Assembly: GCF_003860405.1 (NCBI RefSeq)
Contig: NZ_CP034170.1
Coordinates: forward strand, 2,728,001 to 2,792,000
Direction: 5' to 3'
Source: Nakamurella antarctica
Lineage (GTDB): Bacteria > Actinomycetota > Actinomycetes > Mycobacteriales > Nakamurellaceae
DNA length: 64,000 bases
Part shown: one piece after another, positions 35,924 to 57,057 of the stretch
Position numbering within the stretch: position 1 is the first letter of the stretch
How the letters are laid out: every line of letters begins with the position of its first letter
The notes under the pieces: model-generated
What the model was told of the DNA's origin: nothing
The model's input: the letters and a program-made list of their open reading frames with translations, nothing else
Database searches by the model: none
Program-made: the position numbers and the translations under genes

Positions 35924-37453
35924 TCAGGACCCTCTCTCGTACCGGAATTCGGTAGGCTTGAAGTGCTCGGGATATTTAGAACCCTGACTGCCCATTGTTA
36001 AATTTACCTTGGCGTCTTGACGGAGCCAAGGACCCACAGATTCGCCTTTACCTGTCCACATAGCATCCGGATTGTGCCCCACATGTTGGCCGGGCAAGTA
36101 AGGGTCGCCCTCACTGGCTTTCAATTTCTTCTCAGCAGCCACTGCGTGATCCTTTGCCCGCAAAAGCTCTTGGTCTTTGCTGGTTGCGACCCGCCCTTCA
36201 GACGCTACTTGCCCGTTTTTCAGCGCCTTATTGGCTCCATCTACTGCTTCTTGAGCCTGCACATGCTGCGCCTCGGTGTAGCCAGAGCGAGGCGGACGAA
36301 ACACCACCGGCCCCGTCAACGCATCATCAATGGCAGAAGCACGCGCCGCCGAAGCCCCCGACCTGATTTCGCTCATCGTAGTACCCACCGAGGCGCTCCC
36401 TCCCCCAGGAAGAGCACCCGCCCGCGACGTCACCAAACCAGACGCTTCATCCAACACCGTCCTGCCATAAGCCCTCGCACCAGCAACCTGAGCGTTCGCC
36501 GAAATAGTGGTCCTCGAAGCCCAAGCCGACGCCGCATCACGCGCCGAACCGGCTCTCGCCTGCGTCAACCCAGCCGCAGCGTCCTCCGCCGCAGCACCAG
36601 CCTTCAAACCCCTCGCAGCATCACCAAAATACTTCAACCCCTTCAACGCCACCCCAGGACCCAACTGCCACAAAGCCTCCACACCCACATCCGCCCACGA
36701 CGCCTCACCCCGCACCGCCTGCACCGAATGCACCCCCAACGCAGCAGCCCCCACCACCGTCATCGCAGTCCCCACACCAGCCATCGCCGCCCCCGCCGCC
36801 GCAGCCCCAGCCGCCGCAGAAGCAACAAAACCAGAAGCAGCCCCCGCCGCCGCCCACGCCGCAGGACCAGCCACCACAAACAACACCACCACAGCAACCA
36901 CCAACAAAACAATCGTGATCACCGCCAAAACACTCGACAAATCCTCCCAAAAATGGGACCACGCCGACCTGTTCTGCATCCCCACCTGATGAGCAGCCTC
37001 CAACGACCCCTGCACCCGATCATCAGCAGACCTACGCTCACCCCCCAACTCATGAAGACTGTCCGTCGCCGCCTGCAACCTCGCCGCAGCCACCCGCACA
37101 GCCTCATCATGCGGATTCACCCCAGCAACAACAGGAACCGGCGCCACCAAAACACCCCCAGCCGCCGCATTCGCAACCACAGCAGCATTCACCGCAACCA
37201 CAGGATCAACCCACGCCCCCTGCGCCGAAACAGCACGCGACTTGTCCCTGTCAGCCGACGCACCAGCCGCCCGAAACCCCTCCGCACGCACAGCAATATC
37301 GGCCACCACAGCGGCATAAGTTACAAACCCATCCCCCGCAACCTGATACGAAGACCCCAACTGATCCAAATGCACCGGCAACTCCAAAATCCGCGCACGA
37401 AAAGCATCCGCCGAATCCCCACGCCACACAGCGTCAGACGCACCATCAGACAA
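35924..37453 (-). CDS. T7SS polymorphic toxin, N-truncated, type-17-like tip (copy 1)
   Basis: A 509-residue protein. It aligns with the full-length toxin at 45593-47191 from DAVWRGDSADAF onward but lacks the first ~40 residues of the T7SS secretion-signal domain, so export is doubtful. An Ala/Val-rich hydrophobic centre (about 165-240) follows. The tip (about 375-509) has QHVGHNPDAMWTGKGESVG, PWLRQDAKVN and KYPEHFKPTEFRYE; from memory this resembles polymorphic toxin type 17 (Ntox17). The 5' junction is near 37455. A SUKH immunity gene follows. Confidence 0.7.
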   Translation of the reverse strand: MSDGASDAVWRGDSADAFRARILELPVHLDQLGSSYQVAGDGFVTYAAVVADIAVRAEGFRAAGASADRDKSRAVSAQGAWVDPVVAVNAAVVANAAAGGVLVAPVPVVAGVNPHDEAVRVAAARLQAATDSLHELGGERRSADDRVQGSLEAAHQVGMQNRSAWSHFWEDLSSVLAVITIVLLVVAVVVLFVVAGPAAWAAAGAASGFVASAAAGAAAAGAAMAGVGTAMTVVGAAALGVHSVQAVRGEASWADVGVEALWQLGPGVALKGLKYFGDAARGLKAGAAAEDAAAGLTQARAGSARDAASAWASRTTISANAQVAGARAYGRTVLDEASGLVTSRAGALPGGGSASVGTTMSEIRSGASAARASAIDDALTGPVVFRPPRSGYTEAQHVQAQEAVDGANKALKNGQVASEGRVATSKDQELLRAKDHAVAAEKKLKASEGDPYLPGQHVGHNPDAMWTGKGESVGPWLRQDAKVNLTMGSQGSKYPEHFKPTEFRYERGS

Positions 37454-40096: not shown

Positions 40097-40137
40097 GGAA
40101 TTCCGAACTCAACGCACCTAAACCGAATACCACCTAT
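40097..40137 (+). repeat. Inverted 41-base piece of the endonuclease tip
   Basis: GGAATTCCGAACTCAACGCA and the following bases to ACCACCTA repeat, in opposite orientation, about 41 bases of the nuclease gene at 34637-34678 (encoding NSELNAPKPNTTY). Here the piece points right and runs straight into an IS3 fragment, marking an inversion breakpoint. Confidence 0.75.
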
Positions 40138-40964
40138 GTGCCGGTGGGCGAAGGTTTCCCGTTCCGGGTACTCGGATTGGCGTGATCGTGCACCATCAGC
40201 GACTGCGCTGTGGCGGCGTGATCTGGCCAGTGTCATCCAGTTCCTGTTTGAGCAGTCCGATAGTACTTACGGTTATCGAAGGATCCACGCTGACCTGGCC
40301 AGGCGTTGTAACCACTGCCACCCTGAGACGGTGCGGGTGCTGATGCGGGAAATGAACTTGGTGACGTGCCAGCCAAAACCGTTCCGGCCGACCACCACCA
40401 TCGCCGGTGACAGTTCCACGACCGCGGACTTGGTCAACCGTGATTTCACCGCCGAGGCGCCGGCGCAGAAGTTGGTCTCCGACATCACCTACATCCAGAC
40501 GTGGGAGGGATGGATGTATCTGGCTGTGGTGTCGGACTGCTTCACCAAACAGGTGGTGGGTTACGCGATGGCCGATCACATGCGCACCGAACTGGTCCTG
40601 CAAGCAATAGATGATGGCGCACAAACAGAAGGCTTTCATTCCTGGAATAACCATATTTCACAGCGACCGCGGCTGCCAATACACCTCCACGGAACTGAAA
40701 GCAGCAGCGAAGCTATATGGGCTACGGCTTTCCCTTGGGCGTACCGGGACTTATTATGATAATGCGTGGGCGGAATCGTGGAATGGGGCTCTCAAAAACG
40801 AACGCGTTAACCGAACCGAATACCCCACACGTAAACACGCACAAATTGACATTACCCAATACATCGAACTAAGATACAACCAGATTCGGCTTCACTCAGC
40901 ACTCGGATACCGAACCCCAAACGAAGCCGAAACCGAATGGCACCAACAGAACACGGCAGCATAA
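40138..40964 (+). mobile_element. IS3-family transposase (OrfB), copy B, frameshifted
   Basis: Covers most of OrfB: VSRSGYSDWRDRAPSA, YGYRRIHADLARR, VSDITYIQTWEGWMYLAVV with the first catalytic D, FHSDRGCQYTS with the second, and WAESWNG with the E. A one-base insertion near 40605 (GCAATAGATGATGG versus GCGATGATGATGG in copy A) breaks the frame. The orfA part and first OrfB codons are missing at the left. Transposition-incompetent. Confidence 0.8.
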
Positions 40965-41952: not shown

Positions 41953-43409
41953 TTATCGCGTGGGTTCGTACCGGAATTGAGTCGGCTTGTAATTTTTAGG
42001 ATACTTCGAGCCTTGACTGCCAAGGGTTGAGTTCACCTTTCCATCCTGACGGAGCCATGGGCCAACTGACTCTGCCTTCCCGGTCCACATCGCGTCTGGA
42101 TTGTGTCCTGCATGCTGACCCGGAAGATACGGGTCACCCTCACTCGCAGCCCGGCTCCGCTCAACCTCTCTTGCTTTTGCGCTTTCCTGCATAAGTTGTG
42201 GATCCTTGGACGTCTCGACGCGTCCGGTACGCGACAATTGGCTGTTCTGCAAAGCCTTATTGGCTCCATCTACTGCCTCCTGCGCCTCCACATGCTGCAC
42301 CTCGGTGTAGCCAGAGCGAGGCGGACGAAACACCACCGGCCCCGTCAACGCATCATCAATGGCAGAAGCACGCGCCGCCGAAGCCCCCGACCTGATTTCG
42401 CTCATCGTAGTACCCACCGAGGCGCTGCCTCCCCCAGGAAGAGCACCCGCCCGCGACGTCACCAAACCAGACGCTTCATCCAACACCGTCCTGCCATAAG
42501 CCCTCGCACCAGCAACCTGAGCGTTCGCCGAAATAGTGGTCCTCGAAGCCCAAGCCGACGCCGCATCACGCGCCGAACCGGCTCTCGCCTGCGTCAACCC
42601 AGCCGCAGCGTCCTCCGCCGCAGCACCAGCCTTCAAACCCCTCGCAGCATCACCAAAATACTTCAACCCCTTCAACGCCACCCCAGGACCCAACTGCCAC
42701 AAAGCCTCCACACCCACATCCGCCCACGACGCCTCACCCCGCACCGCCTGCACCGAATGCACCCCCAACGCAGCAGCCCCCACCACCGTCATCGCAGTCC
42801 CCACACCAGCCATCGCCGCCCCCGCCGCCGCAGCCCCAGCCGCCGCAGAAGCAACAAAACCAGAAGCAGCCCCCGCCGCCGCCCACGCCGCAGGACCAGC
42901 CACCACAAACAACACCACCACAGCAACCACCAACAAAACAATCGTGATCACCGCCAAAACACTCGACAAATCCTCCCAAAAATGGGACCACGCCGACCTG
43001 TTCTGCATCCCCACCTGATGAGCAGCCTCCAACGACCCCTGCACCCGATCATCAGCAGACCTACGCTTACCCCCCAACTCATGAAGACTCTCCGTCGCCG
43101 CCTGCAACCTCGCCGCAGCCACCCGCACAGCCTCATCATGCGGATTCACCCCAGCAACAACAGGAGCCGGCGCCACCAAAACACCCCCAGCCGCCGCATT
43201 CGCAACCACAGCAGCATTCACCGCAACCACAGGATCAACCCACGCCCCCTGCGCCGAAACAGCACGCGACTTGTCTCTGTCAGCCGACGCACCAGCCGCC
43301 CGAAACCCCTCCGCACGCACAGCAATATCGGCCACCACAGAGGCATAAGTTACAAACCCATCCCCCGCAACCTGATACGAAGACCCCAACTGATCCAAAT
43401 GCACCGGCA
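41953..43409 (-). pseudogene. T7SS polymorphic toxin, 5'-truncated by IS, type-17-like tip (copy 2)
   Basis: The frame holds about 486 toxin residues from LPVHLDQLGSSYQ to YKPTQFRYEPTR. About 65 residues of the secretion-signal domain are lost at 43409, where the sequence becomes an ISL3 transposase fragment; a chance GTG at 43443 in the IS could open the frame. Core and tip match copies 1 and 4 closely. Without its N-terminus it is unlikely to be secreted by the T7SS. Confidence 0.72.
42600..43409 (-). repeat. Toxin core repeat, copy 2
   Basis: Second copy of the shared toxin core (offset 6029 from copy 1). Copies 1 and 2 continue to match leftward through the pretoxin region to about 36250 and 42280. 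Confidence 0.9.
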
Positions 43410-43654
43410 GGGACTTGTCACCAACAAGATCGTCGGACGCCACCCGAACGGTTCACCGGACAGACGTCGCAGCAACGTATCTCGCGGAACACCCCGCCCA
43501 CCGCAGCTTGCGCATAGCCGGTCGACGGCCATTGACCGGCACAGAAGGATCGCCCGATCCGGTTCCAGGATCTGACCCGTCAACTCCAGGCCGAGCTTGT
43601 CGAGCCGGCAAAACGTGCTCAGATTAGGCACATCGAAAGTAGAGTCAGCCATGT
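43410..43654 (-). mobile_element. ISL3 transposase N-terminal remnant
   Basis: Encodes the missing N-terminal end of an ISL3 transposase: DVPNLSTFCRLDKLGLELTG, a CASCGGRGVPRDTLLRRLSG zinc-finger-like stretch and EPFGWRPTILLV. It is cut at 43410, where the toxin core begins. Confidence 0.65.
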
Positions 43655-44162: not shown

Positions 44163-45152
44163 CTACTGATTGGCCAGGGTGGTGGCCCATTCCTGCTCGG
44201 TGAAATTCTCCCGCACCGGATGCCACCGCGGGATCTGGGAATAAGGCCGAGGGAAGCTCACCTCATCATCAATAAAGTTCACATCGTACGGACGGTCCAC
44301 CCACACCGGATCGGCGTCATACTCAAAATCGATAGTGAACAAATCCTGCAACCTGTCCACCACCACCGTGGCAGTGAACCAAGCCCCGACCTCCGGCGTC
44401 GCCATCGCCGGCCGCATCAAAGCCAACGCCCGCACCACACCCCTAGACTCGGGCAACGTGTAGGCATCACCAGCGGCATCGAAACCCACCACCACCGACT
44501 CCTCCCACTGACCCAAAATGTTCGCCGTAATCTCCACCCGGCGCCACCCCAAGTCATAATCGGCCGCCACCGCCGCCGCCACCGCAGCACGCAACTCCTC
44601 CACCGACAACGGATCCTGCGTCGAACAGGCGCGCTCAATATCGGCCAGATCCGGGTTCTTCTTCTCCAGCACATCCATCAACGAATCAACGCTTTCGCTG
44701 TTAGCCAAAGCAACCTCGCCGCCCGTCACCGGCACCAACGTCAAAATCTCCACCGGCTGCCCACCTGGCTCCGCGGCAATCACATTGAAATGATCAGGCA
44801 TGAAGGGATGAGCGCTCAACAAAACACCCTCAATAAGAGTCCCCGTCAGCAAAACCTGACCACCGTTAGCCACAAGGTCGCCGGCCACAAAACCCCGACT
44901 CCCATCAAGCACCATCTGCAAACTCAGCCGCAGCAAATAATCAGCGGCCCCCTCCTGCCCAGCCTTCACCGAACACACCAGCTCCTGCGGAAACACAGCC
45001 GTCACCGGCGAATCGCATAAACCTACCGTCGAGAACGACACGAACTCCGGCCGAACCCACTTCCATAGCTCCACACCACCCACCACATCAACTCGGCTAC
45101 CCTCACCCAACAACCGAGAAAAATGCTCCACCACCGCACCCACACGCGTCAT
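44163..45152 (-). CDS. SUFU-YezG fusion immunity protein
   Basis: A 329-residue two-domain protein. Residues 1-180 resemble suppressor-of-fused (SUFU) immunity domains: VSFSTVGLCDSPV, FPQELVCSVKAG, and PVEILTLVPVTGGEVALANS. Residues 190-329 are a YezG/DUF600 domain (RPAMATPEVGAWFTATVVVD, FPRPYSQIPRWHPVRENFTE). It overlaps the ankyrin gene by 4 bases and lies in the operon of the GH-E toxin, so it probably helps neutralise that toxin or a former nuclease tip. Confidence 0.75.
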   Translation of the reverse strand: MTRVGAVVEHFSRLLGEGSRVDVVGGVELWKWVRPEFVSFSTVGLCDSPVTAVFPQELVCSVKAGQEGAADYLLRLSLQMVLDGSRGFVAGDLVANGGQVLLTGTLIEGVLLSAHPFMPDHFNVIAAEPGGQPVEILTLVPVTGGEVALANSESVDSLMDVLEKKNPDLADIERACSTQDPLSVEELRAAVAAAVAADYDLGWRRVEITANILGQWEESVVVGFDAAGDAYTLPESRGVVRALALMRPAMATPEVGAWFTATVVVDRLQDLFTIDFEYDADPVWVDRPYDVNFIDDEVSFPRPYSQIPRWHPVRENFTEQEWATTLANQ

Positions 45153-45592: not shown

Positions 45593-47191
45593 CTAGGGCG
45601 TCTCGCCCGCGTGCGATCGATTCGACGACGGCGTCTCGAGCTGATATATTTCGGGGTTATTCTGGTCCTCAATCACTCTCGCTCTATCATAGCCGCCAGC
45701 AGCGGCTTCGTCCTGATATTTCCGCCATTCGTGATCTGGTCTATGTCCGAAGTCAAACTTCCCCTTCTGAGGAAAGGTTATCCCATTGGGGTCTGGCTTA
45801 CCAGTCTTAGGATCGAACCGAATCCGCTCCCCTTTCGCATTGACTTGGGCCGGAATGATGTCGTTCGAACTCGCACAAATGAAGTCGCCGTCAGAATTTC
45901 TGCGAGCGTTCGCGTAGATGTCTCGTTCTGTTTGGACCCGCAGTGTCACGCGGTTCCTGACCGCTTCATATGTTTGCTTGATCCTAGGCGTTTTGGGATT
46001 CGGAGCGGCAGGAGAGTCCACATTCGGCTTCGGAGCCGCGGGAGGATTTGGGCTGCTCGGTGGATTCGGACCTGCGGGCGGCTTCGGGGCATTCGTCGGC
46101 TTCGGCCCAGACGTCGAGCTCGGTTTTGGAGCAGTAGGCGGCTTCATTGGCCCGGCCGGTGTCGGAACAGCGTTCTTCACATTCTTGATACCAGCCGCAG
46201 CGTCCTCCGCCGCAGCACCAGCCTTCAAACCCCTCGCAGCATCACCAAAATACTTCAACCCCTTCAACGCCACCCCAGGACCCAACTGCCACAAAGCCTC
46301 CACACCCACATCCGCCCACGACGCCTCACCCCGCACCGCCTGCACCGAATGCACCCCCAACGCAGCAGCCCCCACCACCGTCATCGCAGTCCCCACACCA
46401 GCCATCGCCGCCCCCGCCGCCGCAGCCCCAGCCGCCGCAGAAGCAACAAAACCAGAAGCAGCCCCCGCCGCCGCCCACGCCGCAGGACCAGCCACCACAA
46501 ACAACACCACCACAGCAACTACCAACAAAACAATCGTGATCACCGCCAAAACACTCGACAAATCCTCCCAAAAATGGGACCACGCCGACCTGTTCTGCAT
46601 CCCCACCTGATGAGCAGCCTCCAACGACCCCTGCACCCGATCATCAGCAGACCTACGCTCACCCCCCAACTCATGAAGACTGTCCGTCGCCGCCTGCAAC
46701 CTCGCCGCAGCCACCCGCACAGCCTCATCATGCGGATTCACCCCAGCAACAACAGGAACCGGCGCCACCAAAACACCCCCAGCCGCCGCATTCGCAACCA
46801 CAGCAGCATTCACCGCAACCACAGGATCAACCCACGCCCCCTGCGCCGAAACAGCACGCGACTTGTCTCTGTCAGCCGACGCACCAGCCGCCCGAAACCC
46901 CTCCGCACGCACAGCAATATCGGCCACCACAGCGGCATAAGTTACAAACCCATCCCCCGCAACCTGATACGAAGACCCCAACTGATCCAAATGCACCGGC
47001 AACTCCAAAATCCGCGCACGAAAAGCATCCGCCGAATCCCCACGCCACACAGCGTCAGACGCACCATCGGACAACTTCTGCAAAAGAACAGCAGCAGCCG
47101 ACGCATCAGCACCCAAATCCTGCAACTGCGTACCCAACCAATGCACGCTATTCATATCCCCAGCACCAGGATCATCAACAGACCAGCTCAC
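45593..47191 (-). CDS. Full-length T7SS toxin with GH-E (HNH/Endo VII) nuclease tip
   Basis: A 532-residue effector. Residues 1-95 form a T7SS secretion-signal domain: SWSVDDPGAGDMNSVHWLG and AVWRGDSADAFRARILELP. The GTG start at 47191 is chosen because SWSVDDP fits the family's usual start; it overlaps the upstream gene by 17 bases. A hydrophobic Ala/Val centre (about 210-285) may insert in membranes. A Pro-rich linker (PAGPMKPPTAPKPS) leads to the tip (about 410-532): ICASSNDIIPAQ, KGKFDFGHRPDHEWRKYQDE and TPSSNRSHAGETP, the GH-E pattern of HNH/Endo VII nucleases. Immunity genes follow. Confidence 0.85.
   Translation of the reverse strand: MSWSVDDPGAGDMNSVHWLGTQLQDLGADASAAAVLLQKLSDGASDAVWRGDSADAFRARILELPVHLDQLGSSYQVAGDGFVTYAAVVADIAVRAEGFRAAGASADRDKSRAVSAQGAWVDPVVAVNAAVVANAAAGGVLVAPVPVVAGVNPHDEAVRVAAARLQAATDSLHELGGERRSADDRVQGSLEAAHQVGMQNRSAWSHFWEDLSSVLAVITIVLLVVAVVVLFVVAGPAAWAAAGAASGFVASAAAGAAAAGAAMAGVGTAMTVVGAAALGVHSVQAVRGEASWADVGVEALWQLGPGVALKGLKYFGDAARGLKAGAAAEDAAAGIKNVKNAVPTPAGPMKPPTAPKPSSTSGPKPTNAPKPPAGPNPPSSPNPPAAPKPNVDSPAAPNPKTPRIKQTYEAVRNRVTLRVQTERDIYANARRNSDGDFICASSNDIIPAQVNAKGERIRFDPKTGKPDPNGITFPQKGKFDFGHRPDHEWRKYQDEAAAGGYDRARVIEDQNNPEIYQLETPSSNRSHAGETP
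46192..47076 (-). repeat. Toxin core repeat, copy 3 (in the intact toxin)
   Basis: The likely donor copy of the shared core. It leaves the common sequence at 46192, where the GH-E linker begins, and continues past 47076 into an intact secretion-signal domain that the other copies lack. Confidence 0.9.
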
Positions 47192-47792
47192 CCCACACCC
47201 CCACCCGATCAGAACCTGCCACACCGAAACGAAACGACTCAACAATCGCATCGAACAACGACCCAAACTGCTCCCGCAACTCCAACACAGGCGAAGCCGC
47301 CGTCACTACCACCAGCCCTCCACGCTCTGGAACAGCAAAAAAGTACTGCCACACGGCAGACTTCGCCGCAGCCCCACCCAACGCCGGATCAGCAATCACA
47401 TCGACAAACGACGAACGCACCACCGGCCCGACACGATGCTCCACTGTCTCCACCAACGCTCCCTTACGACGTTGTAGATGCTCAGCGAGCACCTCGCGCT
47501 CCGACCCACGGACCGACTGCACAGACGCGGTCAACGACGCAGCTAACGGCAGGACATCATCCACCCACGTCGAAAGAACCGCACAAAAAGAGAGATTCGC
47601 TGCTCTCGCGCGGCGCATGGCCGACCGAACCTGCGACTCCACCCGCCCACGATGCGCAGCGACCCCGGGGTCGCGAAGCACAGCTTCATCTACTAAACGC
47701 TGCACCTGAGCAGGCACCCGATCCGACTTCATATCAAGGACAAACCAATCCGGCGGCAGACGCAAACTAAACTCAACACCCTGCGCCACCAC
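47175..47792 (-). CDS. Toxin partner protein in T7SS operon
   Basis: A 205-residue soluble protein (FSLRLPPDWFVLDM, a helical middle of about 80 residues, then a beta-rich VWQYFFAVPERGGLVVVTAA and a LFDAIVESFRFG end). GTG start at 47792 overlaps the upstream stop by one base (TAGTG). No family recognised with certainty; its place between WXG100 and toxin genes suggests a targeting or chaperone role comparable to EspG, which is only a positional inference. Confidence 0.6.
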   Translation of the reverse strand: MVAQGVEFSLRLPPDWFVLDMKSDRVPAQVQRLVDEAVLRDPGVAAHRGRVESQVRSAMRRARAANLSFCAVLSTWVDDVLPLAASLTASVQSVRGSEREVLAEHLQRRKGALVETVEHRVGPVVRSSFVDVIADPALGGAAAKSAVWQYFFAVPERGGLVVVTAASPVLELREQFGSLFDAIVESFRFGVAGSDRVGVWGELVC

Positions 47793-48118
47793 TAGACCTC
47801 TCCCCCAGGCCTATCCGCAGTTGTCACAGACCCCTGAGACCAAGCCGCCTCCAGCTGCGCCTCAGTGTTCGCATAGTCCTCCTTCACACCAACGATTGCC
47901 CCGTAGAGGGAGCCGATCTCCTCCACCATCGTCTTCCGGCCATCTTCCCAACCCGAGCAAAAACTCATCAGGGAGTCAGCTACCGCCGAAGAACCCAACG
48001 CCTCCGTGAAACTGGAAAACCCAGTCTCAGCATCGCCCAACTGCGCCTGAACCAAAGACAACTGGCCAGCAAGCACATCTAGCGCGCCCAAATCCGCAAA
48101 GAATTCAGCCATCGCCAC
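47792..48118 (-). CDS. WXG100-like partner protein
   Basis: A 108-residue helical-hairpin protein. LDVLAGQLSLVQAQLGDAE and a second long helix flank SFCSGWEDGRKTM, in the position of the WXG turn. It has no classic W-x-G but the size, hairpin and operon fit ESAT-6-like proteins. Probably co-secreted or a helper of the toxin; last of the WXG-type pair before the toxin module. Confidence 0.65.
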   Translation of the reverse strand: MAMAEFFADLGALDVLAGQLSLVQAQLGDAETGFSSFTEALGSSAVADSLMSFCSGWEDGRKTMVEEIGSLYGAIVGVKEDYANTEAQLEAAWSQGSVTTADRPGGEV

Positions 48119-48150
48119 CCCCTGTAATCACTTGTACTAATTGAGAAAGG

Positions 48151-48183
48151 CCGGCCTGTCGGCATGCTTTACCGACAGGCCGG
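48151..48183 (-). terminator. Hairpin between the two WXG100-type genes
   Basis: CCGGCCTGTCGG at 48151-48162 pairs with CCGACAGGCCGG at 48172-48183 (12 base pairs, 9-base loop). It lies between the WXG100 gene and the toxin module. On the minus strand it is followed by CTTTCTCAATT, so it could act as a partial terminator that favours WXG100 expression over the toxin. Confidence 0.6.
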
Positions 48184-48222
48184 ACGCCATTCGAGTTAAG
48201 AGAAGATCCCAGCCTGCAAGGA

Positions 48223-48516
48223 TCAACCGCGAAGCTGCGACGCCAACGAATCCTCAGTGTCCTGGTAGGCCTTGGCAGCCGCCTTCAGTTGAGCAGCAAT
48301 ACCGTCTAACGCAACCTTCAACTGGTCTGCCGACCTGTTCCACTCTTCGTAGAGCTCTTTGAAAGACAATGATGCGGCGCCCGCCCAACCCTCGTTCACC
48401 AAACCGTCGACGTGTCCCCTCGCGCTGGAAAGCTGCGTGGAGATATCCCCGGACGTGGCTGTGAGCTGCGTGGAAACCGCGTCAAGCTCGGTAGACGTCA
48501 CCTTAATCATGCTCAT
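48223..48516 (-). CDS. WXG100-family (ESAT-6-like) protein
   Basis: A 97-residue protein with the classic layout: helix 1 (STELDAVSTQLTATSGDIST), the W-x-G turn in NEGWAGAASLSF, helix 2 ending AAAKAYQDTEDSLASQLRG with a Y-x3-D/E secretion motif (YQDTE). ATG at 48516 has GGGAGGG 8 bases upstream. T7SS substrate and likely core component of the locus. Confidence 0.9.
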   Translation of the reverse strand: MSMIKVTSTELDAVSTQLTATSGDISTQLSSARGHVDGLVNEGWAGAASLSFKELYEEWNRSADQLKVALDGIAAQLKAAAKAYQDTEDSLASQLRG

Positions 48517-48620
48517 ACGAATGCCCTCCCAATATGTCTCGCCGGATAGCCCAGTCGAGTTAAACGAACAGTAGCACCATAAAATGTGTAGGCCAAAGGT
48601 GTCGAACAAACCTATTTCGA

Positions 48621-49610
48621 TCAGCCGGTGGCGGGAGCAGGCTGCCCCTCAGTGACATTAAATGTGGAGTCTATTTTCGGCGGGACTACTTCTACGTTCC
48701 AATCCTTCATCGTGAAATCCACCGAGCCCGTCGAGTCTGCAATCCGAACACGGAGAGGCCAGGGAACACCCCGAGAAGCCACGACCGCTGTACCCACCAA
48801 CAAGTTGTTCTCGGTAAGAAGCACCTGAACGCCAGTCCCTTCCGAAACCGTTGTTATCGAGCCGGTTGTGTAGGCCACTGACGGATCGGGGTTTTTCAGG
48901 ACCAAGCCGATAAGTCCAACCGGACTGGTCAAAGTTATGAAGTCTTTCGCGCGTTGATCACTCACTTTGAGATGCAGCCAAGATGTGACCATCCGGGGTA
49001 AAAGTAATCGTTGAGCAAATTCGTCGTTCGCCTTGAGGTAGACGTCTTCACCCTTTCGCACCACCGACGCAGAAAGGTTGCCGATTATCAGTTCCGCAAC
49101 GTAGGAATCGTCGGTCCCGCGGCTGTCGATGCTAATGGAATTGAGGGGGACCACCTGCGGCGGGTCTGTGACTGCTGAAACAAGGGCCGAGGGGGTCGTT
49201 ACGGAACCGGAAACACTCGAAGCCACTGAATCTTCCGAACTGCCCAGCGTGCGGGCGAACGCCTCGATAGAAGCTGTATATGTGCCGCTCACATGGACTG
49301 ACTTGGCTGCAGCTGCTGCGTCAAACGCCGCAGCCATCACGGCGGGGCCATCTTTGAGCTCGATGCCATTGCTGGGTTCATCGCTCGTCGAAGCGACTGT
49401 AGCGATGGGCAGCGCGCTCGCCGAAGGCACCTCAGCTCCCGAAGCGCTGTTAGTAGCCGCTGTTGATTCGGTCGCGGTGATGGTCACCGGCGCGACTTCA
49501 GCACCGGTGCACGCGCTGATCGAAGCCGCGATGACAAGTAGGCACACTGCGGTGCCTGTCTTCTTCAAAGTGATATTTTTGAACGACATTGTGTGATGGC
49601 TTTCTTTCAT
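48621..49610 (-). CDS. T7SS-locus lipoprotein
   Basis: About 329 residues. N-terminal lipoprotein signal with lipobox ISAC, a Ser/Thr/Ala/Val-rich linker, then a beta-rich domain (SVHVSGTYTASIEAF, YVAELIIGNLSASVVRKGED, VYLKANDEFAQRLL) reminiscent of LppX/LprG-like lipoproteins. ATG at 49610 overlaps the kinase stop (ATGA); an in-frame ATG at 49589 is an alternative. It may be the exterior part of the secretion machine or bind lipid at the membrane. Confidence 0.65.
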   Translation of the reverse strand: MKESHHTMSFKNITLKKTGTAVCLLVIAASISACTGAEVAPVTITATESTAATNSASGAEVPSASALPIATVASTSDEPSNGIELKDGPAVMAAAFDAAAAAKSVHVSGTYTASIEAFARTLGSSEDSVASSVSGSVTTPSALVSAVTDPPQVVPLNSISIDSRGTDDSYVAELIIGNLSASVVRKGEDVYLKANDEFAQRLLLPRMVTSWLHLKVSDQRAKDFITLTSPVGLIGLVLKNPDPSVAYTTGSITTVSEGTGVQVLLTENNLLVGTAVVASRGVPWPLRVRIADSTGSVDFTMKDWNVEVVPPKIDSTFNVTEGQPAPATG

Positions 49611-51169
49611 GACAGTCGGATGGCTTCGAATGTGGCCGCGCCTGAGCAAGCAACAGACCCGCCAGCCGCACTAATCTCCGCAGTGTTCTGAGGAATGGGA
49701 GCTGTGACAGGTGTTGTGGCTGGACGCACCAAGAAACAGGCGTCCGCGCTGGTAACGCTACTGGGAACAAATGCCAGTCGTCCCCGCACGTACAGCGTTG
49801 CATCCTTTGGCCCCGACTCCACGGACAGCAAGATCAGTGTGTAAGGGAGGTCTGGTCCATCCCAAGACAATTGCGTGTTCCCGTTGCCCGGAGTGATTCT
49901 CAAGGCGCTGAGCTGTTCGGCAACTTGAGCACTCGAACTCTGCGAGGGGCCGACGCTCGCAGAGTTAGCCGAAGGAGCAGCTTCGTCCACACCTGAGTCG
50001 CCAGAGCGGGCGAGCAACACGAATGCCAGAACTGCCATAGCAGCACCCGCAGCGACTGAAGAGATGAGTACCGGCGACCGCCACAGGGATCGATGCTTCG
50101 TGACCTGCTCCGGCTCAGGTGCCAGCGGAGGCAAAAGTGGAGGGCGGTCCAATGTAGGGGCATCCAGTGCTATCAAGCCCCAAGGGGAAATCGCGCTTAG
50201 GTCCGGTGTCGGCTCCGACCTCGTTGACGCCCCCGCGGCCATTTGCACGTGACTGCCGGGACGGGGTCGTTGAGCACTCGGCGCTCGTGCAGGCGCCTCA
50301 GGGGGTCCATCAATAACGACTAACGCGTCAGTACTGCCTGTTTCGGGCCGATCGAGGGGCACCGATGAGGGATGAGGTGGCAGCCGGGTCTCTGTATCTG
50401 GCTCTTGTTGTTCCCCAGCCGGGTTTGGGAATGCATCGAGGAGGTGGCGGGGCGAGATACGGCGACCCAACATTGGCGGGGACAGCGCCGCCAACAACTC
50501 GGTTTTCAACTGGGGATGAGCGGCTAGTAAGTCCTCGTCTAACGTGCTCGCCATCCATTCGGTATTACCTATCAAAGTCGTCACGATGGTTGCCGCGAGG
50601 CTATAGGTGTCTGTGGCAACGGTGATGAGGCCACCCTGATGGATCTCCGGAGCGGTAAAACCCGCCGTCGCCCGAGCCGAAACCTCACCAAGACGGCCCA
50701 CGTCACCAAGATCAGCAACCTGCAGGCAGGCGTCGTTCACCACAAGATTCGCCGGCTTCAGGTCAACGAACGCCCACCCGACTCCATGCAACGTTTCCAT
50801 CACTTCTACGATCGGAGCAAAGAGCGAAAAAAGCTCGTCAAGTCTGACCGGACGCTCATTCAGTCGGTCCAACAGAGTCTGCGGCTGATAGTCCCGAACC
50901 AAATACTTCACGTCTGAGTAACTGCCATGGCTGACCAACCTCACCACACCCGGAAGTCCCGTTAGTCGCTGATGGGCAGCGACTTCCTGGTCGATGAATT
51001 GAGCAAATCCACACTTGACTACCACAGACGTCTGATCGTCTCGGGTAACGGCGAAGACAGATCCGCGATTCGACTTGCCCAACAGCACAGCTCCTTGAGC
51101 GGTCGGCACTGCAGCCGCTATAAGCTTTTCAACCACCACATCCGGGTAACTGACGCTGAAGTCCGTCAC
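49607..51169 (-). CDS. Membrane Ser/Thr-kinase-like protein (EssB/YukC-like position)
   Basis: A 520-residue protein. Residues 20-260 are a protein kinase fold: SVVVK (ATP lysine), helix-C glutamate in DQEVAAHQRL, catalytic loop FVDLKPANLVV in which HRD has become FVD but D, K and N are kept, DLG for DFG, and APEIHQGG. A Pro-rich linker, one transmembrane helix (about 365-387) and an external domain with NTQLSWDGPDLPYTLILL, fibronectin-III-like, follow. In T7SSb, YukC/EssB has a pseudokinase, one helix and an outside domain; this may be its counterpart. Overlaps EssC and lipoprotein genes by 4 bases each. Confidence 0.75.
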   Translation of the reverse strand: MTDFSVSYPDVVVEKLIAAAVPTAQGAVLLGKSNRGSVFAVTRDDQTSVVVKCGFAQFIDQEVAAHQRLTGLPGVVRLVSHGSYSDVKYLVRDYQPQTLLDRLNERPVRLDELFSLFAPIVEVMETLHGVGWAFVDLKPANLVVNDACLQVADLGDVGRLGEVSARATAGFTAPEIHQGGLITVATDTYSLAATIVTTLIGNTEWMASTLDEDLLAAHPQLKTELLAALSPPMLGRRISPRHLLDAFPNPAGEQQEPDTETRLPPHPSSVPLDRPETGSTDALVVIDGPPEAPARAPSAQRPRPGSHVQMAAGASTRSEPTPDLSAISPWGLIALDAPTLDRPPLLPPLAPEPEQVTKHRSLWRSPVLISSVAAGAAMAVLAFVLLARSGDSGVDEAAPSANSASVGPSQSSSAQVAEQLSALRITPGNGNTQLSWDGPDLPYTLILLSVESGPKDATLYVRGRLAFVPSSVTSADACFLVRPATTPVTAPIPQNTAEISAAGGSVACSGAATFEAIRLS

Positions 51170-54100
51170 GTCGCACTCCGCGGGAGAGCCATCTGCGCCA
51201 AAACCAACCCAGCCCCCTCTTGGAGGTACGCGCGGCCGGGGGCCTGCCTTCCGATCTGGTTTCGCGGAACAACACCACCAATCAAGTCCGCCACCAGCGT
51301 ATTGGCTGGCGAGAGAATTACCCCACGCTTGTGCCGTTTGGCCTCTACAGCAATCCCGCGCAGCATGCTTCCCAGATCCTCTGCCACTGCCGCTACGACC
51401 AAGCCAAACGATCCCAGATGGCGCCCTTTGATGAGCTCTATCAGGGCCGCATCGACTTCAGTGCCGTGCACCATCTCAGCGTCGTCGACGAGCGCCACGA
51501 ACCGATCGGCGTGCTCGCCAGCCATCGCGCCGATACTGCTGCCGGACACCGCGGACAAATCGGTGAGGACCGTAATGCCGGCTCCCTTCGCCCATCTTGT
51601 AAGCGGAGACTCCTTGACTGCGATAACCACCATCGGCCACCCAGCAGCACGTAGACAGGACCCGATCGAAGCTAAGCCCGTACTCCGGCCGGATTGCCGC
51701 ATCCCCGCCACGAAAAAACTTGGGGTATCGGCGAAACTAGCCCGGTACTGCGAAAGTTCATCGCCTCCCACCCCGACAACAAACCCATCGGCAGGTCCAT
51801 AAGCGATCGGTAAAGATTCCGCTTCTTCCACCGAAATTTCGTCCGGCAGCACGTCCAACCGGAAGGGCTTTCCCGCGACTTCGGCAAGATCTCCAGCTTG
51901 TGCGACCGCAGCCACGGCTGCTCGAACAGCGGCTGTCTGTCCAGGCCCTGTCAGGTCATCGCTCATAGAAGCGAATTGCACCTCGCTGACGGGGTCGCCG
52001 AAGTAGGCTCGGCCCACAGGGATAGTTTCCGGAAGAGCTGACGGCTTGATGTTGACCGCTCGGTAATCCTCTCGATCTGCGAGTCGCAGCACATATTTAT
52101 TTTCGATCAACGCAGCCATCCGGTCATTCAGCAGACTCCGGTCGCCCGTCACAATTACGCGAACGCCGACGCTCGCCCCCTCACGCAACAGCTTGCTCAC
52201 GAGGTCGCGCCTTTCCATCAGCATGTCGCTCGTACTACTGGAAACGAGCCCCTCCCACTTGTCAATCAGCAGCACGAGATACGGCAGAGCTTGGCCAACC
52301 GCTGCGACTGCGCGTTGTTCATTAATGTCGCTGAAACCGCCGCGGCGTAGGGTCTGCTGCCGCTGACCGACCTGAGCATGAAGCTTCTTGAGTAAACGAT
52401 CGACTCGATCGATTTCAGTTCCAGCCACCACTGCGCCAGTGTGGGGAAACCCATCGAGTGGCATGAGTCCACCGCCAAAGTCGATGACGTACAGATGCAA
52501 ATCCCGAGGAGAGTACGACTGCGCGAGTCCCACTGCAACTGTTCGCAGCACGACCGTGCGCCCAGATCGCGGTGAACCAGCGATCAGCAGGTGCGACCCG
52601 GCTTCAACGTCAAAACGCAAAGCTCTTTGCGCCTGCTCAGCGGGGACATCAAGCAGCCCCATAATTACGCCCGCAGGTAGCTCCCCTACCACGCCCAGAG
52701 CCTCGCTTGCTGCTATTTGCCGAACGGTTAATAACGTCGGTAGGGCCGGAAGCCATGGGCTTGGATTCCGCCTGATTTTCAGTTGTTCACATGCCAAGCC
52801 AATAAGGTCAACAACACCTTGCAGGTCGGTTTCCGCCTTCGAATCCGAAGCTGCCGAAGGGCGCTCGAAGGTCACGGGCATCCCGAGCTCGTGCCAGCCC
52901 ACGCGTCTCACAACCGGAGGTTGAACGACTTCGACATGGGCTCCGCGACGACGACCAGCAACTCGGGCTGTTTGGAACGATGCCAAGGAAATGTTTCCCC
53001 CCTTTTTGGCGTAGCCGCGCCCTGGTGTCGAAGGAGAGATGAATGCAGCATCAGCAGCGCCCAATACTTCGGTGGAGTTTTCCTTGTCCGCCATCCGAAG
53101 CGCTACCCGCAAACTGACATTCGATTGCATTTCGGCGGTGATCACGCCAGCCGGGCGCTGTGTTGCCAAAATCAGATGGACGCCCAGTGAACGACCAACT
53201 CGCGCGATTCGGACCAGCCCTTTGACGAAGTTCGGCAGCTCATGGACGAGCTCAGCAAATTCGTCAATGACAATAACGAGTCTGGCCAAGCCTCGGCTAG
53301 CGGCTGCGGCTGAGTCCCGGTCCCAAGCACCATCGACGTCTGGGACGCCGATGTCCTTCAGTGCCTGTTCCCGCCGCTTCAGCTCGGCATCGAGTGAGAT
53401 CAGAGCCCGTTCAGTCTCACGATTGTCTAAATTAGTGACCATCCCGACCGTGTGCGGCAGGCGTGCACAGTCCGCGAACGCTGACGCACCCTTGTAATCG
53501 ACCAGCACAAAGTTCAAAGCGTCCGGCCGATTGGCCAGTGCTAAACCCGCCACCCATGTTTGTAAGAACTCCGATTTACCTGCCCCTGTCGTTCCCGAAA
53601 CCAATGCGTGGGGTCCGTCAAGTTTTAGGTCCAGAGAGAGCGCCCCGTCAACGCCCACCCCGATAGTCGCCCTCGTCGTGCGACCAGAAAGGCTCCATTG
53701 GGCAGCGAGCCGACCAGGGTCATCGAAGTCGATGTCCAACAAATCAACGAAGCGGACTGAACTTGGCAGGGCCCCCACATCTCCGTCCCCGCCAACATGA
53801 CGCAATGGGGTCATACAGCGGCTGGCGTTCTCGGCCGATGTCGGATCAACACCCTCAAGCAGGACCCCAGCGATCGGAAGCTCACCTGCAACTTCGAGCC
53901 GGGCGACTCCTACATCGGCCGGGTCAGCGGAGAGTTCGGCATTGGCTTCCTCTGGAAGCCGAGCCCGTTCTTCGTCCAATGCGATGACATACACGCCGAC
54001 CGCTGGGCCTTCACTAAGAACCTGAACCATGCCCGGAAGGGTGCGATAGCGCCTGGCGCCATCAATAAGAACCACCACTTCGCGGCTAAAGAGGACGCTG

Positions 54101-55476
54101 GCTCCACCACGGCTGGACAGGCCGTTCTTGCGTGAGTCGATCTCGCTCAGCAGTTCAGCGAGTCGGTCGGACCTACTATCCGGGGTGTTGCCAATAAGTG
54201 CCACCGGGGCATTGGCGACCTCACCGGCCGCATGAGGCAACCACCGGACCCACTGCCAGTCGTCCGCCTGCGCTTCATCGCAGATCACTTTGATTTGCAG
54301 ATCTCGTGGACTACGAAGGACCGCTAACTGCAACAGCGCCCAACGTCCGATCGATCGGGCTGTCGCTGCCGGGGCCGCGACACCAAACACGCCAGCACTC
54401 CGCAAGTTGATTCCAACGGGCAACGGCGAAGCCATGGGCTTGTACGAGCTGCCCCGTTCGAGGCCATCCAACGCCACGGGGAGCTCTACAGCAGCAACAC
54501 CTACACGGATCAAAAGACCATCTGGGTCAGTGAGCCGGCGCTCCCACAGGCGAGCAGTAGGTCCGCTTGCAATCTGAATGACCAATGCGACGTCGGGCAA
54601 ATCGCGCCAAGTGCGCTGACGCTCCGTCAAAGCGACCTCAGCCAGTTTTGTCGCAGCATTGTCTCGCGTTAGTTCCCAACGTTCGAGCGCCCTCTTACCC
54701 CTGCGAGTGGCAAGGCGCCGTTGAACGACCGAATTAAGAACGACCGCAACCGGTGACAAAAACCCAAACAGTAAAGCCATGGGATTGTGCAGGACAACAG
54801 CCGAGACTCCACCCATCACTAACGGCGCCGCCGCCATCGCCCACGGCATGGGGGCCTTTTCCTGTGGCTCGGGTGGGGCGCCAGCCATCAGAACGGAGTG
54901 CGCCGCCTGCTGTCCGCGGATTCGCGTCGTACGGTTGAATGCCAAACCGCCAGAATCATCTGGCTTAATGTCGGCGTCAGCCGTGGGCGGTCGGCCAACC
55001 TGAAACACAGAACGACCGATCTCCACCTTGTCGAATTCGGTCAGCTCACATTCTTCGGTGATGAGCTTGCCGTTTTGAAAAACGCCGATCCCAGGGTTGA
55101 CCCGACCGCTGTTACCCTCGACTGAAAACGTCGTCAAAGTTCGACTCACGCCCGGGTCAGGCAACTGCAAGTCTGCCGAAATGTTGCGTCCCACGGAAAC
55201 TGGCTCACACAGCTCCATAACTGTGCCAGCAAACGGACCGCCAACTACCTGCAGTTGCCACCCTGATTGCTTCGCTGAGAGTGCGCGTCGAGGCAATCGT
55301 AGGCCGCTCACTGGCCCCGCTACCCCGGCCTCATCATCAGCTTGAGACCCCGGGGCCACGTCTGCGAGCGCCATCCCCAACGCAGAAGCCAATTCACTCA
55401 CGGCAAGCAGAGGGTCGGCTTCGACTACTACGTCGTTCCAGTCCGCACCGTCAAATAAGGTCAGCTGTAACCGCAT
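51166..55476 (-). CDS. EssC/EccC-type FtsK/SpoIIIE ATPase with FHA domain
   Basis: A 1436-residue secretion motor. Residues 1-45 could be a ubiquitin-like start (WNDVVVEADPLLAVSELASA). An FHA domain follows (about 75-165; GRNISADLQLPDPGVSRTL), then two transmembrane helices (about 212-252). Three FtsK-type ATPase domains have Walker A GTTGAGKSE (about 628), GSPRSGRTVV (about 968) and the weaker GMRQSGRST (about 1262). Walker B IVIDEFAELV is intact in the first. FHA plus three ATPases in one chain is the EssC/YukB (T7SSb) plan, unlike mycobacterial EccC. No EccB, EccD, EccE or mycosin gene is present here. Confidence 0.88.
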   Translation of the reverse strand: MRLQLTLFDGADWNDVVVEADPLLAVSELASALGMALADVAPGSQADDEAGVAGPVSGLRLPRRALSAKQSGWQLQVVGGPFAGTVMELCEPVSVGRNISADLQLPDPGVSRTLTTFSVEGNSGRVNPGIGVFQNGKLITEECELTEFDKVEIGRSVFQVGRPPTADADIKPDDSGGLAFNRTTRIRGQQAAHSVLMAGAPPEPQEKAPMPWAMAAAPLVMGGVSAVVLHNPMALLFGFLSPVAVVLNSVVQRRLATRRGKRALERWELTRDNAATKLAEVALTERQRTWRDLPDVALVIQIASGPTARLWERRLTDPDGLLIRVGVAAVELPVALDGLERGSSYKPMASPLPVGINLRSAGVFGVAAPAATARSIGRWALLQLAVLRSPRDLQIKVICDEAQADDWQWVRWLPHAAGEVANAPVALIGNTPDSRSDRLAELLSEIDSRKNGLSSRGGASVLFSREVVVLIDGARRYRTLPGMVQVLSEGPAVGVYVIALDEERARLPEEANAELSADPADVGVARLEVAGELPIAGVLLEGVDPTSAENASRCMTPLRHVGGDGDVGALPSSVRFVDLLDIDFDDPGRLAAQWSLSGRTTRATIGVGVDGALSLDLKLDGPHALVSGTTGAGKSEFLQTWVAGLALANRPDALNFVLVDYKGASAFADCARLPHTVGMVTNLDNRETERALISLDAELKRREQALKDIGVPDVDGAWDRDSAAAASRGLARLVIVIDEFAELVHELPNFVKGLVRIARVGRSLGVHLILATQRPAGVITAEMQSNVSLRVALRMADKENSTEVLGAADAAFISPSTPGRGYAKKGGNISLASFQTARVAGRRRGAHVEVVQPPVVRRVGWHELGMPVTFERPSAASDSKAETDLQGVVDLIGLACEQLKIRRNPSPWLPALPTLLTVRQIAASEALGVVGELPAGVIMGLLDVPAEQAQRALRFDVEAGSHLLIAGSPRSGRTVVLRTVAVGLAQSYSPRDLHLYVIDFGGGLMPLDGFPHTGAVVAGTEIDRVDRLLKKLHAQVGQRQQTLRRGGFSDINEQRAVAAVGQALPYLVLLIDKWEGLVSSSTSDMLMERRDLVSKLLREGASVGVRVIVTGDRSLLNDRMAALIENKYVLRLADREDYRAVNIKPSALPETIPVGRAYFGDPVSEVQFASMSDDLTGPGQTAAVRAAVAAVAQAGDLAEVAGKPFRLDVLPDEISVEEAESLPIAYGPADGFVVGVGGDELSQYRASFADTPSFFVAGMRQSGRSTGLASIGSCLRAAGWPMVVIAVKESPLTRWAKGAGITVLTDLSAVSGSSIGAMAGEHADRFVALVDDAEMVHGTEVDAALIELIKGRHLGSFGLVVAAVAEDLGSMLRGIAVEAKRHKRGVILSPANTLVADLIGGVVPRNQIGRQAPGRAYLQEGAGLVLAQMALPRSAT

Positions 55477-55554
55477 TCGACTACCCTACTTCCGTCAAGA
55501 CAGACGAAGTCACCTCGCAGTGGAGGGTCTCACCGACGGTCAATATAGTCGTCG

Positions 55555-57057
55555 TCACCGGTGCGCTCGGTGACTTCCCGATCGTCGCTGCCGAACTGCG
55601 ATAAGGAACACGCACCCACTGACAAGCAGGCCGAGCGCCCACAGCACTGATGGTTGGATGGGCACGCCTGTGTATGCCAAGTCACCGGAGAGGCCCTCTG
55701 CTGCTTGGGCGCCGTCTGCTGTGTTGGACGAGCCTGACAGTGAACCGCTGGCATTTTCAACTGAACGAGACTCACGCGCTACAGCCGCGAGCGCGTCGTT
55801 CATTGCGTGAAACATTCCGTTGAGAGGCGGTGGGGCAAGAATCGGGCTTCCCAGTTTCGCGATACTTGGGACTGCCACCTGTTCGTTCTGAACCGTGATG
55901 GTGGTCGAAGTCGACACAGTTGACGTCACTGGTGCCCCTTGAACCGTGGTAGCCGGACCACTTACTGTCGTCGCTGGGCCGCTGACCGTTGTTGACAGAC
56001 CACTCACCGTTGTTGCAGGTCCAGTTACTGTCGTTCCAGGGCCAACTACAGTCGTTGCAGGTCCACTAACCGTTGCTGTCGCGGTGCTAGTGACGACCGC
56101 TCCATCCTTTGCAATCGCGACCTGCACCACCCCGTTTGCTTGGTCGCCCTTGCTGTTCACGACGTGATAACCAAACTGGTCAGTACCGGAGAAGCCTGCG
56201 GCGGCTGTGTAGACCATAGTCCCGTCGCTCTTGCACTGCACGGTCCCATTTTTCGGAGCGTCACAACTCACTAATTCGAGCTTTAGCCCTTGGGGATCAG
56301 AATCGTTGGCCAGCAGGTTGCCTTTTACCGGTGCTGCGCCGGTCGTGATGAAAATATCAGGTTGCACAATAGGCGCCGACGATGCAGCGGCAACCACCTC
56401 CACACGGATGGTGGCTCGTTGAGAACTATTTCCGTACGGGTCCGAAACCGTGTAACTCAGGCTGACCGATCCCGTGTAATCCGGTGACGGACCAAATTGA
56501 AGCACTCCGTTGCCGAGATCGCTGGGCGCTCCCCACACCCCGGCGGCCGCCGGAGAGACCGCGCCTGCGGAAAATAGCGGTGTCGCCCCAGCGCAGCCAA
56601 CGCACTGAATGTGGCTGGCAAACGTACTAGCAGGGAACAGTGTTACGGTGCCTTGGCTGACCGGGAACCCGAAGTCGAAGGAGTCTGCGGTCGGAGCGTC
56701 CGGAGGCGTCATCTGCACTGTGACCGTTAGCTGCATCGGGGTTACACCATCCGCCTGCAGAACAGTGATATCAAACGGCGCAGATTTCACATCCGGGTTG
56801 TAGCTGATGCTGCTCACGGCAACCGAGTCGCTACCTGCTTGGCACCCGATTGTGAAAAGGCCGGGCTGTGGGCTGCCTGCTGGACACGCTTGAATCACTG
56901 CGCCCGGGGCACCGATTGCTGAGAGTGATTTGGTGACCGTCTTACCGAACGGTAAGACTAGTGAGGCCGCATCGGCAGCGAGCGCTGTTCCCCCTCCCGC
57001 CATGCCTGATGCAACGAGAATGATGGCCGCTGCCACCCACATCCGATCAGCACGCAT
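55555..57057 (-). CDS. LAYTG-anchored Ig-like surface protein of the T7SS locus
   Basis: A 500-residue exported protein: signal peptide (about 1-28), an extracellular region with Ig/cadherin-like domains (YTGSVSLSYTVSDPYGNSSQ, FSGTDQFGYHVVNSKGDQ), a tandem tract of VSGPATTV-type octapeptides (about 335-375), then the cell-wall sorting signal LAYTG, a hydrophobic helix and a basic tail RQRRSGSHR. LAxTG is the class E sortase motif. First gene of the T7SS operon, 78 bases before the EssC-like gene; it may extend the secretion path to the cell surface. Confidence 0.8.
   Translation of the reverse strand: MRADRMWVAAAIILVASGMAGGGTALAADAASLVLPFGKTVTKSLSAIGAPGAVIQACPAGSPQPGLFTIGCQAGSDSVAVSSISYNPDVKSAPFDITVLQADGVTPMQLTVTVQMTPPDAPTADSFDFGFPVSQGTVTLFPASTFASHIQCVGCAGATPLFSAGAVSPAAAGVWGAPSDLGNGVLQFGPSPDYTGSVSLSYTVSDPYGNSSQRATIRVEVVAAASSAPIVQPDIFITTGAAPVKGNLLANDSDPQGLKLELVSCDAPKNGTVQCKSDGTMVYTAAAGFSGTDQFGYHVVNSKGDQANGVVQVAIAKDGAVVTSTATATVSGPATTVVGPGTTVTGPATTVSGLSTTVSGPATTVSGPATTVQGAPVTSTVSTSTTITVQNEQVAVPSIAKLGSPILAPPPLNGMFHAMNDALAAVARESRSVENASGSLSGSSNTADGAQAAEGLSGDLAYTGVPIQPSVLWALGLLVSGCVFLIAVRQRRSGSHRAHR

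Follow-up and report, generated by a model that had tools for sequence, protein, structure and literature searches.

A T7SSd-like locus of Nakamurella antarctica encodes a non-RD kinase with a retained catalytic set beside an ATPase whose FHA domain is half-eroded

The stretch studied, hereafter the window, comprises 64,000 nucleotides of Nakamurella antarctica (NZ_CP034170.1, positions 2,728,001 to 2,792,000), and all feature coordinates are relative to it. It carries a block of T7SS genes that runs from a Big_9 surface protein through an EssC-like ATPase, a kinase, a lipoprotein, a WXG100 protein, a second WXG-like protein and a 205-aa protein to a protein with a GH-E nuclease domain (Table 1). 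The kinase gene is an intact open reading frame encoding 520 aa, with a GTG start at position 51169. This start overlaps the EssC stop codon by 4 nt (GTGA), and the kinase stop overlaps the lipoprotein start by another 4 nt (ATGA), so EssC, the kinase and the lipoprotein are probably co-translated. Third-codon GC is 0.58-0.70 within the block (45593-57057), compared with 0.74-0.80 in flanking genes, and the EssC lineage of the window is absent from other members of the genus among the genomes searched. Together, these two features suggest that the block was probably acquired horizontally.

To place the locus, we surveyed 161 loci with EssC relatives, taken with long flanks from a sample of genomes centred on that of the window, from a class-level sample and from named genomes. 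In an EssC tree (FastTree, FHA columns left out), the window locus pairs with a locus that we call L090 (support 96), and the two are sister to 21 Microbacteriaceae and Demequina loci (support 100). When 399 order-level and 396 phylum-level genomes were searched for a closer kinase orthologue, only the genome of L090 was returned, and no plasmid-borne orthologue covered 80% of the query. The lipoprotein has no Pfam match; a homologue is also encoded 3' of the ectodomain gene in Microbacteriaceae and Demequina, and none was found in L090, whose kinase likewise lacks the ectodomain. These relatives bear on whether the kinase belongs to the secretion system at all. In Streptomyces loci, canonical kinases lie convergent to EssC beside a degenerate FHA domain, as would be expected of a general signalling kinase (PknB or PknG type) that is a mere neighbour of the locus and has unlinked targets. 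Such a reading is very improbable for the window protein given the coupled overlaps on both sides of its gene, the orthologue in the same place in L090 and the T7SS loci of Microbacteriaceae and Demequina, which encode homologues of its ectodomain and of the lipoprotein.

Table 1. Features of the T7SS block, in window coordinates
Feature	Position	Strand	Evidence or remark
Secreted Ig-like (Big_9) protein, C-terminal TM, possible TsdI counterpart	55555..57057	-	PF17963 3.5e-21
EssC/TsdC-like FtsK ATPase	51166..55476	-	PF01580 4e-49; TIGR03928 EssC 1.5e-160, below its cut-off
GTGA overlap, EssC stop/kinase start	51166..51169	-	Sequence; translational coupling
T7SS kinase (TsdD-like)	49607..51169	-	Kinase domain ~11-250, Pro-rich linker, TM helix ~366-388, beta-rich ectodomain ~420-508
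Catalytic loop AFVDLKPANL	50744..50773	-	FVD in place of HRD; D136, K138, N141 retained; aligned with canonical kinases
DLG form of DFG motif, ADLGDV, D153	50699..50716	-	Same DLG in PknG
Lipoprotein gene	48621..49610	-	ATGA start overlaps kinase stop
WXG100 protein (EsxA/TsdA-like)	48223..48516	-	PF06013 4.5e-20; TIGR03930
Second small WXG-like protein	47792..48118	-	Homologue in L090
205-aa T7SS-locus protein	47175..47792	-	Homologues in L090, L117, L137, others
Putative effector, GH-E nuclease domain	45593..47266	-	PF14410 1.8e-13

The GH-E gene is one of three minus-strand genes for effector-like proteins whose N-terminal halves are very similar (35927-37453, 41956-43452 and 45596-47302), at least two of which have differing C-termini. 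Interspersed among them are an IS3-like transposase (40136-40964) and a SUFU-domain protein (44163-45152), an arrangement that resembles a polymorphic toxin cassette array.

Control of secretion by a kinase and an FHA domain is known for T6SS. Among type VII systems, Garrett, Higginson and Palmer (2024) defined T7SSd in Actinomycetota by TsdA, TsdC with an FHA domain, the TsdD kinase, TsdH, TsdI and no ubiquitin-like gene, and a phospho-switch between the kinase and the TsdC FHA was proposed since the pocket is conserved (PMC11217815). The window locus appears T7SSd-like when set against this published description. It encodes a WXG100 protein (PF06013, as TsdA), an FtsK ATPase with an N-terminal FHA domain (as TsdC) and a predicted membrane Ser/Thr kinase with an extracellular C-terminus (as TsdD), and its genome lacks a separate ubiquitin-like gene (YukD/EsaB; no PF08817 match at E 1). 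Two features differ: the phosphothreonine pocket that is well conserved in TsdC is partly lost in the window (H to L, N to I), and the ectodomain is predicted to be a beta-sandwich, whereas the TsdD C-terminus is described as helical. TsdI is a large secreted Ig-like protein of 1654 aa with a C-terminal TM; the Big_9 protein upstream of EssC has 500 aa and a C-terminal TM. The first-pass annotation had suggested that the kinase might act on the FHA domain of the neighbouring ATPase, a hypothesis thus already published for the class; the window locus appears to add a case in which kinase and FHA domain are each at an intermediate stage.

The only Pfam domain in the 520-aa protein is PF00069 (Pkinase; E=2.1e-16, 60.6 bits against a cut-off of 31.7). 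Motif reading and alignment with canonical kinases placed each residue where it had first been read: the ATP lysine is K52 (VVVK), the helix-C glutamate is E62 (QEV), and with D136, K138, N141 and D153 all six catalytic residues (K, E, D, K, N and D) are present. The HRD motif is not; its position reads F134-V135-D136, with H changed to F and R to V. A Gly-rich loop (GKSNRGSV, residues 31-38), the APE glutamate (E175) and the alpha-F aspartate (D187) are also retained.

Another close known architecture is that of EssB/YukC, which shares a cytoplasmic kinase fold, one TM helix, an extracellular domain and a neighbouring ATPase whose FHA has an unconserved phospho-pocket. In T7SSb, this FHA domain of EssC binds the pseudokinase EssB without phosphorylation (PMC11217815); YukC does not bind ATP, and in E. 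coli it binds the FHA region of YukB, again without phosphorylation (Tassinari et al. 2022, PMC9600267). The window kinase differs in its intact ATP and catalytic motifs and in its beta ectodomain, which is not a helical stalk, and PF10140 has no match in the protein at E 0.1 or in the genome at E 1. We therefore rejected EssB/YukC membership, and the earlier view that the protein is unlike the pseudokinase EssB is borne out. The defence-kinase families MAD6 and PD-T4-6 match the window protein merely as kinases and were set aside.

Structural modelling, proposed in the first-pass annotation as a check on the active site, predicts a complete Hanks-type kinase fold. The AlphaFold2 model, built from 34 sequences, is confident over the kinase domain and the beta-rich ectodomain (pLDDT ~90 over most), is of low confidence in the Pro-rich linker (~250-360) and places a TM helix at 366-388. 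Its kinase domain matches the active kinases Wee1, PKR, Myt1 and Aurora A, with Z ~20 over 220-240 aligned residues (VIA-align). By sequence, the closest PDB entry is PknG (2.8e-11), which has the loop LVYNDLKPEN (non-RD) and DLG; the two proteins share the non-RD xxDLKPxN loop, DLG and a short activation segment. PknG is an active kinase. Its activation loop is reported to be open and substrate-permissive without phosphorylation (PMC8546545), so a non-RD loop is no argument against activity. The likeness stops short of membership, which we rejected: Pfam found only kinase families, with no rubredoxin or TPR domain detected, the window kinase is predicted to be membrane-anchored, and in a kinase tree with long branches it groups with the L090 kinase and falls outside the PknG clade.

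Since PknG, an active kinase, combines a non-RD loop with DLG in the same way, we consider it likely that the window kinase is catalytically active. The earlier suggestion to this effect gains from the complete catalytic set and the complete predicted fold as well as from the match to PknG. Counted against activity are the loss of both the His and the Arg of HRD, the short, low-confidence end of the modelled C-lobe (208-250) and the nearest homologue, that of L090, which is a clear pseudokinase.

The other side of the proposed pair is the N-terminus of EssC. In the model, residues 1-65 form a beta-grasp-like part and residues ~72-162 an FHA domain, ahead of the FtsK/SpoIIIE domains. The FHA fold scores Z 15.4 to the GarA chain of 6i2r and Z ~15 to the FHA domains of GarA, OdhI and DgcB. 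Measured against the phospho-pocket consensus (R, S-R-x-H and N-G), the predicted FHA domain is half-eroded: R, S and R are kept, His is changed to Leu, and the NG Asn is changed to Ile (RSR-L..I versus RSRH..N). This state makes phospho-dependent docking on EssC uncertain. Residues 1-65 (about 55282-55476) have a beta-beta-alpha, ubiquitin-like (beta-grasp) look that is kept in many actinobacterial loci, and the model raises the idea that the ATPase might carry, in fused form, the ubiquitin-like component that T7SSd lacks. In a second T7SS-like locus of the same genome (L238, 966500-984500), the FHA pocket is intact, and a canonical HRD kinase that has a TM helix and an fn3-like ectodomain is transcribed divergently.

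Across the 161 loci, kinase and FHA states fall into a series. At one end, canonical HRD kinases with a TM helix and ectodomain adjoin EssC in ten loci (L092, L094, L099, L108, L109, L126, L131, L187, L190 and L201); L094, L108, L109, L126 and others have the same kinase-linker-TM-ectodomain layout beside an FHA-bearing EssC as the window but, unlike it, a canonical HRD and FHA. The window locus comes next. In L090, the kinase gene is in the same place, the loop reads FGALAVSALVL with D, K and N lost, the H-to-F change is common to L090 and the window, and the FHA is degenerate too. Microbacteriaceae and Demequina have lost the kinase domain; the gene starts at the linker, keeps the TM helix and ectodomain and still has the lipoprotein gene next to it, and the EssC FHA is again degenerate. 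By sequence, the window protein thus looks like an intermediate between a regulated kinase form and a structural pseudokinase form. A second group of degenerate kinases (L122, L123, L163 and L175) has HLDVRPAN or HGDVRPAN loops and an altered DFG beside degenerate FHA domains; the catalytic-loop Lys is lost in all four, and the DFG Asp or the Asn in part of the group. This group is apparently a separate case of kinase decay.

To ask whether the retained residues exceed chance, we aligned the window kinase to 50 HRD kinases and scored it at columns conserved at >=90% and at the remaining 222 poorly conserved columns. It carries the majority residue at 19/31 conserved columns, as against 38/222 (17%) elsewhere, and at that background rate the expectation of keeping 6/6 catalytic residues is ~2e-5. 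The L090 homologue is equally diverged (39/222) but has the majority residue at 9/31 conserved columns and 1/6 catalytic residues, while a PknG homologue scores 18/31. We infer from these counts that selection preserved the active site through most of the history of the protein. They also bear on the view that the protein is a young EssB-like scaffold, with catalytic residues that are relics and no role beyond docking between EssC and the envelope. That L090 encodes a clear pseudokinase, that the kinases of L122, L123, L163 and L175 are degenerate, that Microbacteriaceae manage without a kinase domain and that T7SSb employs a pseudokinase all point this way; six of six catalytic residues kept over a 17% background, together with the Gly-rich loop, APE Glu and alpha-F Asp, point the other way, and we regard a pure scaffold as rather unlikely.

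We then compared kinase and FHA states across loci. Of 114 loci with enough flank, 20 have an intact phospho-pocket (R, S and N present). A co-directional canonical kinase lies within 1.1 kb in 11/20 of these versus 3/94 others (Fisher 7e-8), with only two or three independent transitions beneath this figure; a phylogenetically independent pair test had 2-3 informative pairs, and its sign test was not significant. Strictly adjacent kinases are canonical in 13/13 cases beside an intact FHA versus 3/7 beside a non-canonical one (hypergeometric 35/4845 = 0.007, uncorrected for kinship). We used this stricter value and set aside a looser count (p 0.001) that included kinases as distant as 7 kb on a single side. 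When kinases are counted out to 3 kb whatever their orientation, the association with FHA state is weak (p 0.015), and in 20 further, more distant loci, 18 FHA domains are intact and just two co-directional canonical kinases lie within 1.1 kb. Coupling between kinase and FHA is therefore suggestive, not proven, across these loci.

Within the window, a working phospho-switch would have the kinase phosphorylate itself, a partner or EssC on a threonine, which the EssC FHA would then bind, thereby controlling secretion. Such a switch is favoured by the retained phosphate-pocket Arg and Ser, the 13/13 versus 3/7 split and an FHA fold whose nearest matches are GarA and further FHA domains of the phospho-dependent type, but the FHA His and NG Asn are lost here, the tree holds so few independent transitions, and many intact-FHA loci lack an adjacent kinase; a working switch is unlikely in this locus. 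The original proposal of a link between the kinase and the EssC FHA stands in part: it is plausible for the system, has been published, and finds an EssC N-terminus predicted to fold as FHA, whereas its phospho-dependent form is weakened by the two pocket changes. With His and Asn lost, and with nearest relatives in which the active site of the kinase or its entire domain is missing, control of secretion through phosphorylation may be residual here.

We suggest that the window protein is a membrane-anchored Hanks-type kinase (TsdD-like) of a T7SSd-like system. It would consist of a kinase domain in the cytoplasm, a single TM helix and a beta-sandwich ectodomain, and it probably shares its mRNA with the FHA-bearing EssC and the lipoprotein. 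Most likely it has kept ATP binding and phosphotransfer and, as a non-RD, PknG-like enzyme, would not need activation-loop phosphorylation. By the precedent of YukC and YukB in T7SSb, its cytoplasmic domain probably docks on the N-terminus of EssC. Reading of phospho-threonine by EssC is likely in the intact-FHA relatives and would be weakened or lost in the window. Taken as a whole, an active TsdD-like, PknG-style kinase that docks on EssC with weakened phospho-reading, as an intermediate form, is the best explanation, and we give it somewhat better than even standing.

More tentatively, decay of the kinase in actinobacterial T7SS may go together, and repeatedly, with decay of the phospho-pocket in the FHA domain of the ATPase, turning a phospho-switch into a constitutive scaffold, with the window locus as a living intermediate. 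If so, the window locus would show how EssB-type secretion pseudokinases can arise. The role of the pseudokinase EssB/YukC and of EssC FHA domains is a standing question in T7SS biology. Intact, half-eroded, dead and deleted kinase states with matching FHA states in one lineage offer natural test constructs, which bear on whether phosphorylation once controlled secretion and on what a pseudokinase retained after catalysis was lost.
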